This document shows positions 1-7,543 of a DNA stretch of 39,804 nt, piece by piece. Origin of the DNA: Bacillota bacterium (lineage in GTDB: Bacteria; Bacillota; Limnochordia; Limnochordales; ZCTH02-B6); the NCBI GenBank assembly GCA_017578085.1, contig PKQR01000006.1:1-39804 (forward strand). The letters are read 5' to 3'. A program made the position numbers and the translations under genes. Below the pieces are notes generated by a model. The model saw nothing but the letters and a program-made list of their open reading frames with translations. It made no database searches and was not told the DNA's origin. Position 1 is the first letter of the stretch; each line of letters opens with the position of its first letter.

Positions 1-464
1 ACGAGCCGACGACGGCGCTGGATGTGACGATCCAGGCCCAGATCTTGGACTTGATGCGGCGGCTCAAGGAGGAGCTCGGCACCAGCATTCTTCTCATCAC
101 CCACGACTTCGGCGTCGTCAGCGAGTTTTGCGACCGGGTGATGGTGATGTACGCCGGCAAGGCGGTGGAGACCGGGCCGCTGGAGGAGATCCTGAACAAT
201 CCCCGCCACCCTTACACGCAAGGGCTGCTCGCATCGATCCCGCGCCTTGGGGACCGCAGCTGCCGGCTCAAACCCATTGAAGGCACGGTGCCCGAGCTGC
301 ACGCCCTGCCGCCGGGTTGCAGCTACTGCACCCGCTGCCCGCTGGCGGACGAATATTGCGCAGCGGTTTCGCCGCCGCTCAGGGAAATTGCCCCCCAACA
401 CCACGTGGCGTGCCACAAGGCGGAACCCGCAGGGCAGGGAGCGACGGAGGCGGTGCCAGGATGA
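1..464 (+). CDS. Peptide ABC transporter ATPase, OppD/DppD type (5' truncated)
   Basis: This is the C-terminal part of an ATP-binding subunit of an oligopeptide/dipeptide importer; the start lies before the window. The visible frame opens within the Walker B/D-loop stretch ([13 protein letters not shown]), continues through the H-loop ([10 protein letters not shown]) and the MVMYAGK segment, and ends in the oligopeptide-transporter C-terminal region ([11 protein letters not shown], then a Cys-rich [15 protein letters not shown] stretch) that marks the OppD/DppD family rather than a generic ABC ATPase. Its TGA stop overlaps the ATG of the next gene by four bases (ATGA, 461-464), so the two are translationally coupled and probably form the two nucleotide-binding subunits of one importer. 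Substrate cannot be read from the ATPase. Confidence 0.93.
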
Positions 465-1495
465 AGCCAGCGGCAGCGGCTGCGCCCGCCGCCCAAGGTC
501 GAGACGAGCCCCTGGTGCAGGTGCGCGGCCTCAAGCAATACTTTCCCGTCCGGTCCAACTGGGTGAACCGGTTTCTCGGCAAAGGAAACCGTTGGTTGCA
601 CGCGGTCGACGGGGTTGACCTGGATATCGCCCAGGGCGAAACCTTGGGGCTGGTGGGGGAGTCGGGGTGCGGCAAGTCCACCTTGGCCCGCAGCATCTTG
701 CGGCTGCATGAGCCGACGGCCGGGTCAATCCGGTTTGCCGGCCGGGAGATCACGGCCCTGTCCCCGGCGGAGATGCGCCAGATGCGCCGGGAGATGCAGA
801 TCATCTTCCAGGACCCGTTCGCGTCCCTCAACCCGCGCCGCACTGTGGAGCAGATCGTGGGCTTGCCCCTGCAAATCCAAGGGGTGCCCCGGCCGGAGAT
901 CCGCAAGAGGGTGTTGGAACTTTTGGCCAAGGTGGGCCTGTCGCCGAGCCATATCGATCGCTACCCGCACCAGTTCAGCGGTGGGCAGCGGCAGCGCATC
1001 GGCATCGCCCGGGCGCTGGCCGTCAACCCCCGGTTTGTGGTGGCCGACGAGCCGGTCTCGGCCTTGGACGTCTCCATCCAGGCCCAGATCCTCAATCTGC
1101 TCCAGGAGCTGCAGGCGGAGCTGGGCCTTACCTATCTATTCATCTCCCACGACCTGGCGGTCATAAGCTACGTCAGCGACCGCATCGCGGTCATGTACCT
1201 GGGCCGCATCGTGGAGCTCGCGCCCACGGAAACGCTGTTTGCGCAGCCGTTGCACCCCTATACCCGCGCCCTGTTGTCCGCGGTCCCGCGCGTCGGCAGC
1301 CGCGGGCAAGTGCGGGAGCGGATTTTGCTCTCCGGCAGCCCCCCGACGCCCATCGACCCGCCCAAGGGATGCCGGTTTTACAGCCGCTGCTACCTGAAGG
1401 AAAAGAACGAGACGTGCCGGCACGTGGACCCGGAGCTCGCGGAATTGACCCCGGGGCACCGGGTGGCGTGCCACGCGGTGGCGGGCACGTTGTGA
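461..1495 (+). CDS. Peptide ABC transporter ATPase, OppF/DppF type
   Basis: This 344-residue protein is the second ATPase of an oligopeptide/dipeptide importer, acting at the inner face of the membrane with the OppD-like partner upstream. Visible motifs are Walker A GESGCGKS (about residues 65-72), Q-loop [13 protein letters not shown], signature [15 protein letters not shown] (about residue 172), Walker [12 protein letters not shown] (about 192), H-loop FISHDLAVI, and the C-terminal [12 protein letters not shown] and GCRFYSRC segments. The ATG at 461 overlaps the upstream stop; a longer in-frame opening from 317 would run through the upstream coding sequence and is rejected. The loop [21 protein letters not shown] between the first strand and Walker A is typical of OppF. 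No permease or binding-protein gene is inside the window; they are probably upstream of position 1. Confidence 0.95.
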
Positions 1496-1520: not shown

Positions 1521-2315
1521 ATGCAGGTCGTTTCCGCTCCCGTAATCGGCATCACTCCCGCCTTTGACGACGGGACCGACGTGGATTCGGTGCGTCCCAA
1601 TTCGGCCGTCCATTTCGTTGACGCCGCCTACGGCCAAGCCCTGGAGCGGGCCGGGGCGGTTGCAGTCGTGTTGCCGGTGACCGAATCGCCTGCCTCCATC
1701 GAGCGCTACGTGGACGTGGTCGACGGCCTGGTGTTGTCCGGTGGCGGCGGCTACCTGCGCCGGCGCCATCGCGAGCGGCCCATCCTGCCCGACCTCAAGA
1801 CCCTGTCCCCGCGCCGTTACCGCTTTGAGGCGGCTCTCTTGCGCCGGGCATTGGAGCGGGACTTGCCGGTGCTCGGCATCTGCCGAGGACACCAGATGAT
1901 TGCCCGTGTCAGCGGGGGGAAGATCTATTCCCAGATCTCCGGGCGCGTTCCCGGGGCGCAGGAGCACTACCTAGGCGAGGGGCACGGCAGGCGTCCCGTG
2001 CATGACATCTACATTGAGCCGGGGACGCTCCTGCACGCCATTCTTGGCACGACCACCGCGGGTACGAACAGCCTCCACCGCCAGGCGGTGGCGCGGGTGG
2101 TGCCGCCGTTTGTCATAAGCGCCCGCGCCGGCGACGGCGTGGCCGAGGCGCTGGAGAGCCGGGGCCACAGGTTCGTGGTCGGGGTCCAGTTTCATCCGGA
2201 GCTGCTGCTGGATTCCGTGCCCATATGGCGCCGCCTGTTTGAGGCGTTTGTCGATGCGTGCCGGGAGACCTGGTCGCGGGGTCCGGGGCTGATTTCGGTG
2301 CCGGCGGGGAGTTGA
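1521..2315 (+). CDS. Class I glutamine amidotransferase-like hydrolase, peptidase C26 (gamma-glutamyl hydrolase family)
   Basis: This 264-residue protein belongs to the C26/PuuD-like family, which hydrolyses gamma-glutamyl amide bonds such as those in gamma-glutamyl-GABA. It begins VIGITPAFDDG as PuuD homologues do, has the oxyanion-hole loop LSGGGG, the nucleophile elbow GICRGHQ with Cys121, and the catalytic His225-x-Glu227 in QFHPELL, so the triad is complete. I chose ATG 1521 because GAGGTGA at 1509-1515 lies five bases before it; a GTG at 1500 in the same frame has no site. It follows the peptide-transporter ATPase by about 25 bases and is probably cotranscribed, which suggests that imported gamma-glutamyl compounds or peptides are its substrate (inference). 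It is cytosolic, with no signal peptide. The exact substrate is not determined. Confidence 0.85.
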   Translation: MQVVSAPVIGITPAFDDGTDVDSVRPNSAVHFVDAAYGQALERAGAVAVVLPVTESPASIERYVDVVDGLVLSGGGGYLRRRHRERPILPDLKTLSPRRYRFEAALLRRALERDLPVLGICRGHQMIARVSGGKIYSQISGRVPGAQEHYLGEGHGRRPVHDIYIEPGTLLHAILGTTTAGTNSLHRQAVARVVPPFVISARAGDGVAEALESRGHRFVVGVQFHPELLLDSVPIWRRLFEAFVDACRETWSRGPGLISVPAGS

Positions 2316-2681: not shown

Positions 2682-2710
2682 TTGACAATGTCAGGCAGAA
2701 CCTATATCAT
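2682..2710 (+). promoter_or_regulatory. Sigma-A promoter driving the riboswitch leader
   Basis: A perfect -35 TTGACA (2682-2687) and a near-consensus -10 TATCAT (2705-2710) are separated by 17 bases. Transcription should begin near 2717, placing the whole c-di-AMP aptamer and its terminator in the 5' leader of the AtuA-like operon. The surroundings are markedly more AT-rich than the rest of the window. Confidence 0.85.
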
Positions 2711-2749
2711 AATGGTAAGAAAATTACATACACCTCTAGCGCAAGCACG

Positions 2750-2925
2750 AAAGGGCGCTTAATTTTGCCTCTGGAGGCAAAAACGGGGGACCCAATCGTT
2801 GTCCTGGGCACCGGGGACGGTGGCAACCGGCGGGAGTTCCGGCCCAGGGCAGAGGGTGAATCCTGGCGCGCCAGGTAGGGCTACTTTTTCGGCCCGAACC
2901 CGCTAGCTAACCTCGTCAGCGTGGA
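2750..2925 (+). promoter_or_regulatory. Cyclic di-AMP riboswitch (ydaO/yuaA type)
   Basis: The leader carries the conserved blocks of the ydaO/yuaA aptamer in order: the 5' P1 strand CGCT (2756-2759); a 9-bp hairpin TTTTGCCTC/GAGGCAAAA (2763-2782); ACGGGGGACCCA (2783-2794); a variable stem CCTGGGC/GCCCAGG (2803-2809 with 2842-2848); GGGTGAATCC (2854-2863) with hairpin CCTGG/CCAGG (2862-2875); AGGTAGGG; GGCCCGAACCCG; and the signature AGCTAACCTCG closing on AGCG (2918-2921), the 3' P1 strand. This aptamer class binds c-di-AMP and usually turns genes off when the ligand is high. A terminator hairpin starts four bases after P1. The controlled gene is the AtuA-like protein at 3001. A short open frame crossing this region (2663-2878) is not a gene. 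Confidence 0.93.
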
Positions 2926-2977
2926 AAAAGCGTGCGGTAGGCCGCTTTGTGCCGCGGCTCCGCTCGCTTTTTGTTTT
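2925..2977 (+). terminator. Riboswitch-associated intrinsic terminator
   Basis: AAAAAGCG-T-GCGG (2925-2937) pairs with CCGC-T-CGCTTTTT (2960-2972), a 12-bp stem with one T/T mismatch, and the T-rich run continues as TTTTTGTTTT to 2977. It lies between the aptamer and the ribosome-binding site of the gene at 3001, the usual expression platform for transcriptional control. I could not identify a clear competing antiterminator by eye. Confidence 0.8.
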
Positions 2978-3000
2978 GGCCCAAGGAGGCGCTCGCGGCG

Positions 3001-4443
3001 ATGACGAGCGGCGGCGACAAACTCAATGCCAACGGTTTCCGCATGTCTCGGCTCGGGCAGCGCGAACCCCCTATTCCAGTGGGGCTCAGGCCGGTGAAGC
3101 TTTTGACCCCCACCGGTCACCTCGGGTTCACACCCATCGAACCCGAGAGCTTTTGGAAGGGCGTCGCCCAGCGCCCGGACGCGATCATCGCCGACTCGGG
3201 CAGCTGCGACATCGGCCCGCACCCATTGGGGGCGGATGAAGCCGCCAGCCCCCGCACCTGGCAGGAGCACGACCTGGAGCTGATGTTGACCGCCAGCCGG
3301 CGCCTGGGGGTGCCGATGATCATCGGCTCGGCGTCGGATACCGGCACGGACCGGGGCGTCCGTGAGTTTGCCGCAATTATCCGGGAGCTGGCCCGCAAGC
3401 ACCGCTTGCCCCGCTTTCGCCTGGCCACCATCTACAGCAGCCAAGACCTCCACGACTTGAAGCGGCGTGTCGAGACCGGCGCATGGACCGCAGGGCTTGA
3501 CGGTCGGCCGCCGTTGACGGTGGAGGACCTGGAGCAGACCGACAACGCCGTGGCGGTGATGGGCGTGGAGCCCATCCTGGAGGCTCTGCGGCAGGGAGCC
3601 GACGTGATCATTGCCGGCCGCGCCTGCGACCCGGCCATCTTTGCGGCGCCCTTGAGGCTGGCCGGCTACGATCCGGCCGTCGCGTATTTTGCCGGGAAGC
3701 TGCTTGAGTGCGCGTCGTTCTGCGCCGAGCCTTTCGCAGGGAAAGAGAGCATCCTGGGCACAGTGGACGGGGACGGGATTGTGCTTGAACCCATGAGCAG
3801 TTACCAGCGGTGCACGCCCGCTTCCGTCGCGGGACACGCCATGTACGAGCGGGCAAATCCGTTGCGGGAGTACGTGCCCGGCGGCTACGTGGACATGAGC
3901 GACTGCGTCTACGATGCGGTGGACGAGCGGCGGACCCGCGTCCGGGGCCCGCGCTGGGTGCCGGGCGAGCGCTACGCGGTGAAGCTGGAGGGCGCGGGCA
4001 AGGTGGGGGAGCGGGCGCTGATGATCGTGGGCATCCGGGACCCTAACACCATCGCGCGCCTGGACGACGCCATCGCGTGGTCCCGGCGCAAAGTGCGGGA
4101 GCGTTTTGCCGGCGAGCAGTACCAGGTCTTCTACCACGTCTACGGCAAAAACGGCGTCATGGGCGAGCTGGAGCCCATCAGGGAAATCCGGTCCCACGAA
4201 GTGTGCGTGGTGGTGGAGGGGGTCGCGCCGACCCGGGCGGAGGCGATGGAGCTCACCAACCTGGCCGGGCGCAATTTCCTGTACGCCCGTATCCCCGGGC
4301 TCAAAGGCACCGCGGGCGCCGCAGCCTTCATGAGCGACGAGGTGCTGCCGGCCAGGGCGGCTTACCGCTGGACGCTCAATCACGTGATCGCGGTCGACGA
4401 CCCGCTGGAACTATTCCGGTTTCAGTTTGAGGAAGTCGGGTAA
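3001..4443 (+). CDS. AtuA-like protein (acyclic terpene utilisation AtuA / DUF1446 family)
   Basis: This 480-residue protein matches the long AtuA-like (DUF1446) family. Family-typical segments are LLTPTGHLGFTP near the start, ADSGSCDIGPHPLG, PMIIGSASDTGTDRGV, GADVIIAGRACDPAIFAAP, GKLLECASFCAEPF, HAMYERANP, VKLEGAGKVGERALMIVGIRDP, YGKNGVMGELEP and IPGLKGTAGAAAF. AtuA was named from terpene catabolism in Pseudomonas, but the biochemical role of this family is not established and no other terpene genes are here. ATG 3001 is chosen because AAGGAGG at 2983-2989 precedes it; a longer opening from 2947 would include the terminator. The DUF4387 gene follows, the usual partner of this family. Expression should be controlled by the c-di-AMP riboswitch upstream. 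Confidence 0.85.
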   Translation: MTSGGDKLNANGFRMSRLGQREPPIPVGLRPVKLLTPTGHLGFTPIEPESFWKGVAQRPDAIIADSGSCDIGPHPLGADEAASPRTWQEHDLELMLTASRRLGVPMIIGSASDTGTDRGVREFAAIIRELARKHRLPRFRLATIYSSQDLHDLKRRVETGAWTAGLDGRPPLTVEDLEQTDNAVAVMGVEPILEALRQGADVIIAGRACDPAIFAAPLRLAGYDPAVAYFAGKLLECASFCAEPFAGKESILGTVDGDGIVLEPMSSYQRCTPASVAGHAMYERANPLREYVPGGYVDMSDCVYDAVDERRTRVRGPRWVPGERYAVKLEGAGKVGERALMIVGIRDPNTIARLDDAIAWSRRKVRERFAGEQYQVFYHVYGKNGVMGELEPIREIRSHEVCVVVEGVAPTRAEAMELTNLAGRNFLYARIPGLKGTAGAAAFMSDEVLPARAAYRWTLNHVIAVDDPLELFRFQFEEVG

Positions 4444-4473
4444 TGGCAGTTGGAACACGGGGGAGGCACAACG

Positions 4474-4818
4474 ATGGTCCGGCTTGGCGATATGGCGTCC
4501 ACCGTCCGCAGCAAGAACGCCGGTCCTGACTGCATTACCTTTGACATCATCTTTCGCGATGCCCAAACCTATGAGCGGGTCAAGGCCAGCGGCGCGTTGT
4601 CAGCCGAGCGCATCTGCCGGCTGTATGGGCTGGAGCCGGAGCGGCTGGTGCATTTCGGCGCCTTTGACCCGGCCCTGGCCTTCAAATTTACCATCCGCCG
4701 GGCGCGCCCGTCCGGCAGTCCTGGGGAAACGGATGTAATGGGCAGCCAGATGTACCCGCCGCTGTTGGACTTAGAGCTGCCCGCCAGCGTGCTGCAGCAG
4801 TCCCCGCCAGCCGCCTAG
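4474..4818 (+). CDS. DUF4387 family protein
   Basis: This 114-residue protein is the small partner found next to AtuA-like proteins in many genomes (DUF4387). Family-like features are the N-terminal ASTVRSKNAGPD and FDIIFRD segments, the central RICRLYG, and the conserved C-terminal run FDPALAFKFTI followed by GETDVMGSQMYPPLLDLEL. Start ATG 4474 follows GGGGGAGG (4459-4466) by seven bases; an in-frame TTG at 4450 is less likely. It begins 30 bases after the AtuA-like stop, so the pair is one operon under the riboswitch. The molecular function is unknown; it may form a complex with the larger protein (inference from constant pairing). No signal or membrane segment is present. Confidence 0.8.
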   Translation: MVRLGDMASTVRSKNAGPDCITFDIIFRDAQTYERVKASGALSAERICRLYGLEPERLVHFGAFDPALAFKFTIRRARPSGSPGETDVMGSQMYPPLLDLELPASVLQQSPPAA

Positions 4819-4907
4819 CGCCCGTGCGCCCCTGGTGACGCGGCTCCGGAAGGCGCTTCCTTCCCTGGCTCGCTTCGGGTAAACTAGACGGGAAGGGAGG
4901 AAGCACC

Positions 4908-6017
4908 ATGACGCACGCAAGCCGCGGCATGGGAAGCGCGGGCGAGGAACAGCACACCGGGCGCGTCCGGTCCCTGGTATGGCGGGACGGCGCCCTCCAT
5001 TTGATCGATCAGCGCCACTTGCCGCTGGCCTTTGAGACGGTCGTTTGCCGCACGGCCGCGGAGGTCGCGGACGCGATCCGCAGCATGGTGGTACGGGGAG
5101 CGCCTGCCATCGGCGCGGCCGCGGCCTACGGGATGGTCCTTGGAGCACGGGAACTTGCCGGCCGCGGGGCTGACGTGCGCGGCGGGCTCCAGGAGGTGGC
5201 GAACCTCCTCAAGGCTGCCCGCCCGACGGCCGTCAACCTGTTTTGGGCCGTGGACCGCATGCTGTCCGTCCTGGAGCGTTGGCCGCAGCTTTCCGATGAA
5301 GAGCTTGTCGACAAGCTTGAGGCGGAGGCGTCTGCCATCGCGGACGAAGACGCGCGCACCTGCCGCGCCATCGGCGCCCACGGAGCCGAGTTGCTCGAGC
5401 CGGGTGGCGTGCTGACGCACTGCAACACCGGCGCCTTGGCAACCGTGGATTACGGCACCGCCCTCGGAGTTATCCGGGCCGCCCATGCCGCCGGCAAACA
5501 GATTCACGTCTACGCGACCGAAACGCGGCCGTTCCTGCAAGGCGCGCGGCTCACCACGTGGGAGCTCTTGCAGGAGGGCATCCCGGTCACCCTGATCACG
5601 GACAACATGGCCGCCTACGTCATGGCCCAGGGGCTCGTCAAGAGCGTCATCGTGGGCGCGGACCGGATTACGGCCAACGGCGACGTGGTCAACAAAATCG
5701 GGACGTACGGCCTCGCGGTGCTGGCCAAGGAGCACGGGATACCCTTTTATGTGGCCGCGCCGGTGTCCACGCTCGATCTGAATCTGAAACACGGGTGGCA
5801 GGTGCCTATCGAGGAGCGGGATCCTAAGGAGGTCACCCACGTGCTCGGGCGGCGCATCGCACCCGAGGGCGTGCCCGTCATCAACCCGGCCTTTGATGTG
5901 ACGCCTAACCGTTATGTGACGGCCATCATCACCGAACACGGGGTCGTGCGTCCCCCGTTTGAAGAGGGATTGGCCCGGCTGGCGCAGCCGGAGAAGAGGG
6001 GAGCCACGAGCGCATGA
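4908..6017 (+). CDS. mtnA: S-methyl-5-thioribose-1-phosphate isomerase
   Basis: MtnA converts methylthioribose-1-phosphate to methylthioribulose-1-phosphate in the methionine salvage pathway. The 369-residue length is normal. The N-terminal region contains MVVRGAPAIGAAAAYG, the catalytic cysteine lies in LTHCNTGALAT (Cys172) and the catalytic aspartate in VGADRITANGDVVNKIGTYG (Asp252). ATG 4908 is preceded by GGGAAGGGAGGAAG. The stop overlaps the ATG of gltX by four bases (6014-6017). No other salvage gene (mtnK, mtnB and so on) is adjacent, although speE, whose reaction generates methylthioadenosine, is 1.9 kb downstream on the opposite strand. The 89-base gap after the DUF4387 gene has no clear promoter or terminator, so read-through from the riboswitch operon is possible. 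Confidence 0.95.
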   Translation: MTHASRGMGSAGEEQHTGRVRSLVWRDGALHLIDQRHLPLAFETVVCRTAAEVADAIRSMVVRGAPAIGAAAAYGMVLGARELAGRGADVRGGLQEVANLLKAARPTAVNLFWAVDRMLSVLERWPQLSDEELVDKLEAEASAIADEDARTCRAIGAHGAELLEPGGVLTHCNTGALATVDYGTALGVIRAAHAAGKQIHVYATETRPFLQGARLTTWELLQEGIPVTLITDNMAAYVMAQGLVKSVIVGADRITANGDVVNKIGTYGLAVLAKEHGIPFYVAAPVSTLDLNLKHGWQVPIEERDPKEVTHVLGRRIAPEGVPVINPAFDVTPNRYVTAIITEHGVVRPPFEEGLARLAQPEKRGATSA

Positions 6018-7543
6018 AGGAAGTGCGGACCCGCTACGCCCCGAGTCCCACAGGTTACCTGCACGTGGGCGGGGCCCGGACGGCCTTGTTCAACTGGCTG
6101 TTCGCCCGCCACCACGGCGGCACGTTTGTGCTGCGCATCGAGGACACGGACTTGGAGCGTTCTACCGAGGAGTCGACCCGCGCGATCATTGAAGCCCTGA
6201 AGTGGCTGGAAATTGACTGGGACGAGGGTCCCGGCGTGGGCGGGCCCTATGGGCCGTACGTGCAGAGCCAGCGCTTGGAGATTTACCGCAAGTATGCGGA
6301 GCAGCTTTTGGCCGAGGGCAAGGCCTACCGGTGCTACTGCACGCCCGAGGAGCTCAAAGCGCGCCGGGAGCAGCTGTTGGCGCAGGGCAAGGCGCCCATG
6401 TACGACCGGCACTGCCTGCACTTGTCGGAAGCCGAGCGGGAGCGGTTGGCCAAAGAGCGGCGATCGGTCATCCGGTTCTTGTCGCCCGACGAGGGTGAGG
6501 TGCGCTTCTACGATCACATCCGCGGGGAGTGCGTTTTCGAAAACAAGGTCCTGGACGATCTCGTGATCCTCAAGTCCGACGGCTGGCCCACCTACAACTT
6601 CGCGGTCGTGGTGGACGACCACCTGATGCGCATCAGCCACGTCATCCGGGGCGAGGACCACCTGACCAACACGGCCCGTCAGATTCAGCTGTATCAGGCG
6701 CTGGGGTGGGAAGTGCCCGAATTTGCCCATGTGCCGCTGATTTTGGGCACCGACCGCACCCGCCTGAGCAAGCGCCACGGGGCGGTGTCGGTGGGCCATT
6801 ACCGGGATGAAGGCTTTCTGCCCGAGGCGATGGTCAACTACCTGGCGCTGTTGGGCTGGTCCTACGACGATCGGACCGAGATCTTTACCAGGGAGCAGCT
6901 GATCCAGTACTTCTCCCTCGAGCGGGTGTCCAAGCACGGCGCCATCTTTGACCTTAAGAAGCTCGAGTGGATGAACGGGGTCTATATTCGCGAGATGCCA
7001 CTGGAGCGGCTGGCGGAGCTGGCCCATGAGCGCTTGAGCGCCGCGGGGCTCGTGCCCAAGGAGCTGGACGACGCGCTCCGGCAGCGCTTGGTGCAGATCA
7101 TGGAGCCGCTGCAGACCCGCATCAAGACCTTGGGCGAGATCGTGCCGGCTACCCGGTTCTTCTTCACCGACGACCTGGAGTTCGACGAGAGCGCGGTGCA
7201 GAAGTTCCTGCACCGGGACTACGTGCCGGGCTTGTTTGCCCGCCTCATCGCACGGCTTTTGGAGCTGGACCCGTGGGACCGCGCGGGAATCGAGCAGCTG
7301 TTCAAGGGACTGGCGGAAGAGTACAACGCCAAGCTCGGCGACGTCATCCAGCCGGCCCGGGTCGCGCTGACGGGGACGTCGGTCAGCCCGCCCATCCACG
7401 ACGTCATCTTTATCCTGGGCCGCGAGCGCACGGTGGAGCGGCTGCGCCGTGGTGTCGACATGGCCAGCGCCGCTTTGGCGGCCTCCCAGGCGGACAAGCA
7501 TTCCCCCGCCGACGCGCCTTCGGCCCGGGCGGCAGACGCATAG
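6014..7543 (+). CDS. gltX: Glutamyl-tRNA synthetase
   Basis: This 509-residue class I aminoacyl-tRNA synthetase charges tRNA-Glu with glutamate. The HIGH motif appears as LHVGGART (His17 to Gly20) following RYAPSPTGY, RIEDTD follows, and the KMSKS-type motif is RLSKRHG (residues 250-256). The remaining length fits the bacterial anticodon-binding helical domain. In Bacillota the enzyme usually also mischarges tRNA-Gln for later amidation by GatCAB; no GlnRS gene is in the window, so a non-discriminating enzyme is likely but unproven. Translation is coupled to mtnA through an ATGA overlap. The gene ends just before a strong terminator and is followed by tRNA-Gln on the opposite strand. Confidence 0.97.
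   Translation: MKEVRTRYAPSPTGYLHVGGARTALFNWLFARHHGGTFVLRIEDTDLERSTEESTRAIIEALKWLEIDWDEGPGVGGPYGPYVQSQRLEIYRKYAEQLLAEGKAYRCYCTPEELKARREQLLAQGKAPMYDRHCLHLSEAERERLAKERRSVIRFLSPDEGEVRFYDHIRGECVFENKVLDDLVILKSDGWPTYNFAVVVDDHLMRISHVIRGEDHLTNTARQIQLYQALGWEVPEFAHVPLILGTDRTRLSKRHGAVSVGHYRDEGFLPEAMVNYLALLGWSYDDRTEIFTREQLIQYFSLERVSKHGAIFDLKKLEWMNGVYIREMPLERLAELAHERLSAAGLVPKELDDALRQRLVQIMEPLQTRIKTLGEIVPATRFFFTDDLEFDESAVQKFLHRDYVPGLFARLIARLLELDPWDRAGIEQLFKGLAEEYNAKLGDVIQPARVALTGTSVSPPIHDVIFILGRERTVERLRRGVDMASAALAASQADKHSPADAPSARAADA

Follow-up and report, generated by a model that had tools for sequence, protein, structure and literature searches.

The stretch of DNA analysed here, called the window, comprises 39,804 nucleotides from a bacterium of the order Limnochordales (Bacillota), and it raises the question of why a leader of the ydaO class, known for binding cyclic di-adenosine monophosphate (c-di-AMP), a signal linked to salt and potassium, precedes an AtuA-family gene and a DUF4387 gene. 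According to excerpts of two papers (PMC9960051, PMC7266159), c-di-AMP riboswitches are found mainly on genes for the wall and for transporters of ions, osmolytes and amino acids. The riboswitch of the window is of an ordinary class; its target is conserved and unexpected, namely a predicted lyase whose type has only recently been solved. The leader is probably a working c-di-AMP riboswitch that acts as an OFF switch, controlling a pair that most likely encodes a C-C lyase of the CmlAB type (ligand binding, polarity and lyase activity are predicted).

Alignment by cmscan covered the full RF00379 model (1-134) with 74.7 bits (gathering score 38, E 1e-15). A sequence-only reading of the window had proposed this ydaO/yuaA aptamer behind a consensus promoter and had named the RF00379 search as a check; both elements were recovered, and its coordinates were correct to within some tens of bases. 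The promoter-like site was the sole one that the promoter scan detected between 1400 and 5100, where 0.3 were expected, and TTGACA is also present in the aligned leaders of two relatives (G002, G004). Loop and tail of the window leader form seven pairs, a helix that we take to be the pseudoknot of solved c-di-AMP riboswitch structures. Among 31 leaders of the order, 29 had at least five Watson-Crick pairs in the best run, compared with 44% of swapped loop/tail combinations; the mean was 6.1 for own loop and tail and 4.5 for swapped ones, a moderate difference because many loops are alike. One register is shared by 25 of the 31 best runs. In G004, CGTTTTC still pairs with GAAGACG by eye in the alignment; the scripted search chose another run there. 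Covariance score and loop-tail pairing thus place the leader in RF00379, and c-di-AMP binding is predicted. Like the ydaO/kimA riboswitch (RF00379), it has a full-model aptamer, loop-tail pairing and a terminator directly after the aptamer, but what it precedes is a predicted C-C lyase pair, neither transporter nor wall gene. It also differs from the RF00379 model in one long variable stem (57 bases versus 6 positions).

The terminator of the sequence-only reading was found as a hairpin with a T-rich tail. Folding of 2920-2980 gave -28.6 kcal/mol, far stabler than shuffles (z -3.1; 1 of 200 equally stable), and both arms are recognisable by eye across five aligned leaders. Pairing upstream of the terminator was computed by folding growing transcripts of the window sequence only. 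The terminator 5' arm (2929-2937) paired with 2900-2908 of the aptamer 3' strand with a probability of 0.74-0.81 for a transcript ending at 2940, and of 0.66-0.72 for one ending at 2960. Since the folded aptamer needs strand 2900-2912, the ligand should release the terminator, suggesting an OFF switch. In the proposed mechanism, RNA polymerase would start at the promoter-like site, and as long as c-di-AMP is low, the aptamer would stay unfolded and its 3' strand would pair with the terminator 5' arm, so that transcription continues. At high c-di-AMP the folded aptamer would retain this strand, the terminator would form, and the gene pair would be turned off. Excerpts of one paper (PMC6488665) report that c-di-AMP shuts off transcription at the kdp riboswitch of B. 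thuringiensis; the excerpts consulted also describe repression by the C. glutamicum nlpC riboswitch and cite it for B. subtilis ydaO. As described there, the B. thuringiensis kdpFABC riboswitch resembles the window leader in having an aptamer followed by an intrinsic terminator, and is turned off by c-di-AMP. It controls potassium uptake and was bench-tested, whereas switching by the window leader is predicted.

The order was sampled with 14 genomes, all of which contained RF00379 (31 matches, one below the cut-off). DUF4387 was found at eight loci in seven genomes, and five of these loci (G000, the window genome; G001, leader cut by the contig end; G002; G004; G005) carry the riboswitch-AtuA-DUF4387 unit. 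No RF00379 match was found within the 6-8 kb examined at the other three (second copy in G005, G008, G013). The G005 genome consists of one contig. The five genomes span two families, with AtuA identity to the window protein down to 74%. In a 25-row tree (23 of 42 AtuA loci, the window and L049), the AtuA proteins of the five units form one clade (100/99), adjoining a gene of archaeal assembly L107. A survey of related genomes for the same leader on AtuA-like genes had been suggested along with the sequence-only reading, which offered a regulon extension as one explanation; as the link is conserved in relatives, the survey argues for such an extension. Outside the order, RF00379 was found on none of 39 AtuA relatives (L107-L145), whose upstream DNA was as short as 257 bases (L116). 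At class level, 14 of the 24 DUF4387 genomes outside the order were searched for RF00379, and a comparison of positions by eye showed the two on a shared contig in none of them. At phylum level, 80 of 90 DUF4387 genomes outside the order were searched and 61 contained RF00379. Among the best 150 of 154 matches, two lay within 5 kb of DUF4387 (G228, 3' of the gene; G400, opposite strand), and none lay upstream in its direction within 35 kb.

The sequence-only reading had also described an AtuA-like (DUF1446) plus DUF4387 gene pair, DUF1446 being an older designation of that family, and profile matches agreed (table 1). Its view of the pair as catabolic-looking and of unknown function has to be changed, since the pair matches CmlA and CmlB, the citramalate lyase of PDB 9erq and 9evf, as compared through names, titles and sequence matches; ADP and pyruvate appear in the title of 9evf. 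Both subunits are present in neighbouring genes, the DUF4387 gene coming next after the AtuA gene, and the large subunit has the same fold as CmlA, to which it is 36.5% identical. A C-C lyase of the CmlAB type is thus the most likely product of the pair, its activity being predicted from this likeness. In the literature searched, no mention of DUF4387 was found, nor of citramalate lyase together with AtuA or of CmlAB together with citramalate, whereas citramalate lyase occurs in four papers since 2022 and two papers contain both c-di-AMP and citramalate; in the c-di-AMP riboswitch and ydaO literature, neither AtuA nor DUF1446 was among the matches listed.

To place the unit among other targets, the window and 30 further leaders of the order were sorted by their first downstream reading frames, three falling outside all classes. 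AtuA accounted for 5 of the 31, octopine-dehydrogenase-like genes for 9 in nine genomes (three Pfam-tested, the rest by eye, L040 inferred from near-identical L037), and betaine-type transport for about 7 (one tested, the rest by eye, L048 uncertain). Peptide-binding proteins followed with 4 (one tested), C26 hydrolases with 2 (one by Pfam, the other by tblastn) and a sulfate-type permease with 1 (tested). Examples of a riboswitch with an octopine-dehydrogenase-like gene behind it are L065:3308-4447, L039:4820-7920, L043:6099-7868 and L052:3772-4914 (-). A B12-binding-domain protein comes after such a gene in G010 and G009, and the following frame in G005 and G008 resembles a penicillin-binding protein by eye.

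A switch on the predicted lyase pair would bring a metabolic enzyme into the direct c-di-AMP RNA regulon, and the leader gives a first physiological clue to a subfamily of AtuA-DUF4387 pairs that occurs in several phyla. The function of the pair becomes testable by asking which solute shifts with c-di-AMP or potassium. The presence of riboswitches on the C26 amide hydrolase, the CmlAB-like pair, octopine-dehydrogenase-like genes and a peptide-binding protein leads us to propose, tentatively, that c-di-AMP in this order might steer a branch of small-molecule metabolism, adjusting how an amide- or opine-like solute is taken up, hydrolysed and cleaved, together with betaine transport.

Several results weigh against the reading of an OFF switch on a CmlAB-type lyase. 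The minimum free energy (MFE) structure of the whole leader lacks the aptamer fold and is of unremarkable stability (z -1.3; 23 of 200 shuffles equally stable), and a simple terminator pattern scan did not list the hairpin at 2925-2972. The antiterminator pairing drops to 0.24-0.39 at transcript end 2952, where a local hairpin competes, and the MFE structure has a different upstream pairing for transcripts ending at 2958, the core of the terminator for 2966 and the full terminator for 2972. For the enzyme, 61 of 93 residues invariant in the AtuA subfamily are common to CmlA and 32 are not; because of these 32 the substrate may differ from citramalate. No methylaspartate ammonia-lyase was above the cut-off in the window genome (PF07476, best 23.8 bits versus 27), so a supply of citramalate from glutamate along this route is unsupported. 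Finally, an OFF switch would leave a breakdown enzyme expressed while the cell accumulates osmolytes, which would be strange for an osmolyte substrate. Osmolyte breakdown at high c-di-AMP would make better sense with an ON switch, in which ligand-stabilised loop-tail pairing occupies the A-rich foot on the 5' side of the terminator and c-di-AMP raises expression. This polarity keeps some small weight because bases 2924-2930 serve both as the tail that pairs with the aptamer loop and as the foot of the terminator stem, but we consider it very unlikely: the terminator core still folds without the A-tract (-23.4 kcal/mol), and the riboswitches compared (B. thuringiensis kdp, C. glutamicum nlpC, B. 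subtilis ydaO) repress, as far as the excerpts describe them.

Control without adaptive meaning would result if the pair had arrived by horizontal transfer beside an old c-di-AMP leader. The sequence-only reading had raised a captured leader, its original wall or transport gene having been lost, and the single origin of the combination on the tree, with an archaeal gene as nearest row, fits a capture, as does the lack of RF00379 on the 39 relatives outside the order. However, aptamer and terminator are still recognisable in five genomes despite the divergence of AtuA, which looks like a maintained switch, and two of the five have a second c-di-AMP riboswitch on the neighbouring C26 gene; a meaningless capture is thus hardly to be expected. 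It is also improbable, to a lesser degree, that the switch governs the whole AtuA-DUF4387-mtnA-gltX run, tying c-di-AMP to methionine salvage and glutamyl-tRNA synthetase. Gene order is the same in G000, G001 and G004, the promoter scan was empty between 4818 and 4908, and the window genome (90% complete) has one gltX match. Against this, the next likely gene in G002 and G005, judged by reading-frame composition, lies on the opposite strand, so that their unit is riboswitch-AtuA-DUF4387 and mtnA and gltX are not a conserved part of it. The 90 bases before mtnA (4818-4908) contain a block conserved in G000, G001 and G004, possibly a promoter or leader, and it is unlikely that an essential gene would be left to an OFF switch alone. 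Read-through to mtnA and gltX, as suggested earlier, is weakened by the opposite-strand gene and this block. Less improbable, though still doubtful, is that the pair synthesises or removes an osmolyte or potassium counter-ion, the link then being classic c-di-AMP physiology. The order's other targets (betaine-type transport, peptide-binding protein, sulfate-type permease, octopine-dehydrogenase-like genes) favour it. An OFF switch on a CmlAB-type lyase pair is the preferred reading.

Table 1. Features of the window discussed in the text (predicted functions unless given as sequence).
Feature	Position	Strand	Basis
Two oligopeptide/dipeptide-type ABC transporter ATPase genes	1..1495	+	first cut by contig end, named by eye; second by profile
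Peptidase C26 / class-I amidotransferase-like hydrolase	1521..2315	+	profile match; no own c-di-AMP riboswitch in window
Sigma-70-type promoter-like site TTGACA-17-TATCAT	2682..2710	+	11/12 match
c-di-AMP (ydaO/yuaA) riboswitch aptamer	2746..2937	+	RF00379 covariance match
Loop CTTTTTC, 5' side of loop-tail helix (pseudoknot)	2884..2890	+	pairs with 2924-2930
Aptamer 3' strand, possible antiterminator partner of 2923-2937	2900..2912	+	folding of growing transcripts, window only
Tail GAAAAAG, 3' side of loop-tail helix, overlapping A-rich terminator foot	2924..2930	+	pairs with 2884-2890
Intrinsic terminator, stem 2925-2972, T-rich tail 2968-2977	2925..2977	+	folding; arms visible in five aligned leaders
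Ribosome-binding site AAGGAGG	2983..2989	+	sequence
AtuA-family protein, CmlA-like subunit	3001..4443	+	PF07287, 109.5 bits vs cut-off 22.8
DUF4387 protein, CmlB-like subunit	4474..4818	+	PF14330, 122.4 bits vs cut-off 27
mtnA	4908..6017	+	profile match
gltX	6014..7543	+	profile match

Base pairing between the block before mtnA and the ribosome-binding site is conceivable. As the block folds no better than shuffles (z -0.9), it may be a promoter instead.

PF07476 was slightly over the cut-off in 4 of the 14 genomes of the order, all of family f3 (28.5-32.9 bits). As 11 of 14 control genomes also gave matches, two of them over the cut-off, the f3 matches were taken as cross-hits of enolase-like proteins. 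The methylaspartate route to citramalate was set aside. In Enterobacteriaceae, a figure legend (PMC4682846) places a DUF1446 gene downstream of methylaspartate ammonia-lyase. That gene shares its family name with the AtuA gene of the window; the window genome differs in having no such lyase above the cut-off.

Upstream of the leader, the ABC transporter stretch matches L035 and L044. The C26 hydrolase scored 92.5 against NCBIfam PuuD, below the cut-off of 266. Its gene has its own c-di-AMP riboswitch in G004 and G001 (L035:7641-7805 (-), L044:4421-4587 (+)). No clear T-tract was found in the 110 bases after either of these riboswitches, so control of the C26 gene may be translational. The order in G004 is ABC transporter genes, riboswitch, C26 hydrolase, riboswitch, AtuA, DUF4387, mtnA and gltX; the same order in G001 is spread over two contigs, and the join there is accordingly inferred. 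In the window, 38 bases separate two stretches that align to G001, versus 323 bases with the riboswitch in G001, and 25 bases separate the ABC stop (1495) from the C26 ATG (1521). These surroundings (dipeptide-type ABC transporter, amide hydrolase, lyase) suggest a pathway that takes up an amide- or peptide-like compound, hydrolyses it and finally cleaves it.

In tblastn searches around 42 AtuA loci, DUF4387 was detected at 41 of them and C26 at 3, one of which is G004; other neighbours were a dipeptide permease (22 loci), an AAT-type hydrolase (18) and a D-glutamate-cyclase-like protein (4). Archaeal L107 likewise has a C26 gene immediately before AtuA, and tblastn indicates one in that place for L138. 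In L107:1911-5238 (Thermococci record), the C26 gene, AtuA and DUF4387 are adjacent and followed by a DcuC-type carrier; either the module is shared between domains of life or this contig was assigned to the wrong bin. The D-glutamate-cyclase-like protein is near AtuA-DUF4387 in L108, L109, L113 and L123 (PF14336 tested in L108 and L113), hinting at a glutamate-like substrate. TRAP transporter genes are found near the pair in L108, L109 and L123.
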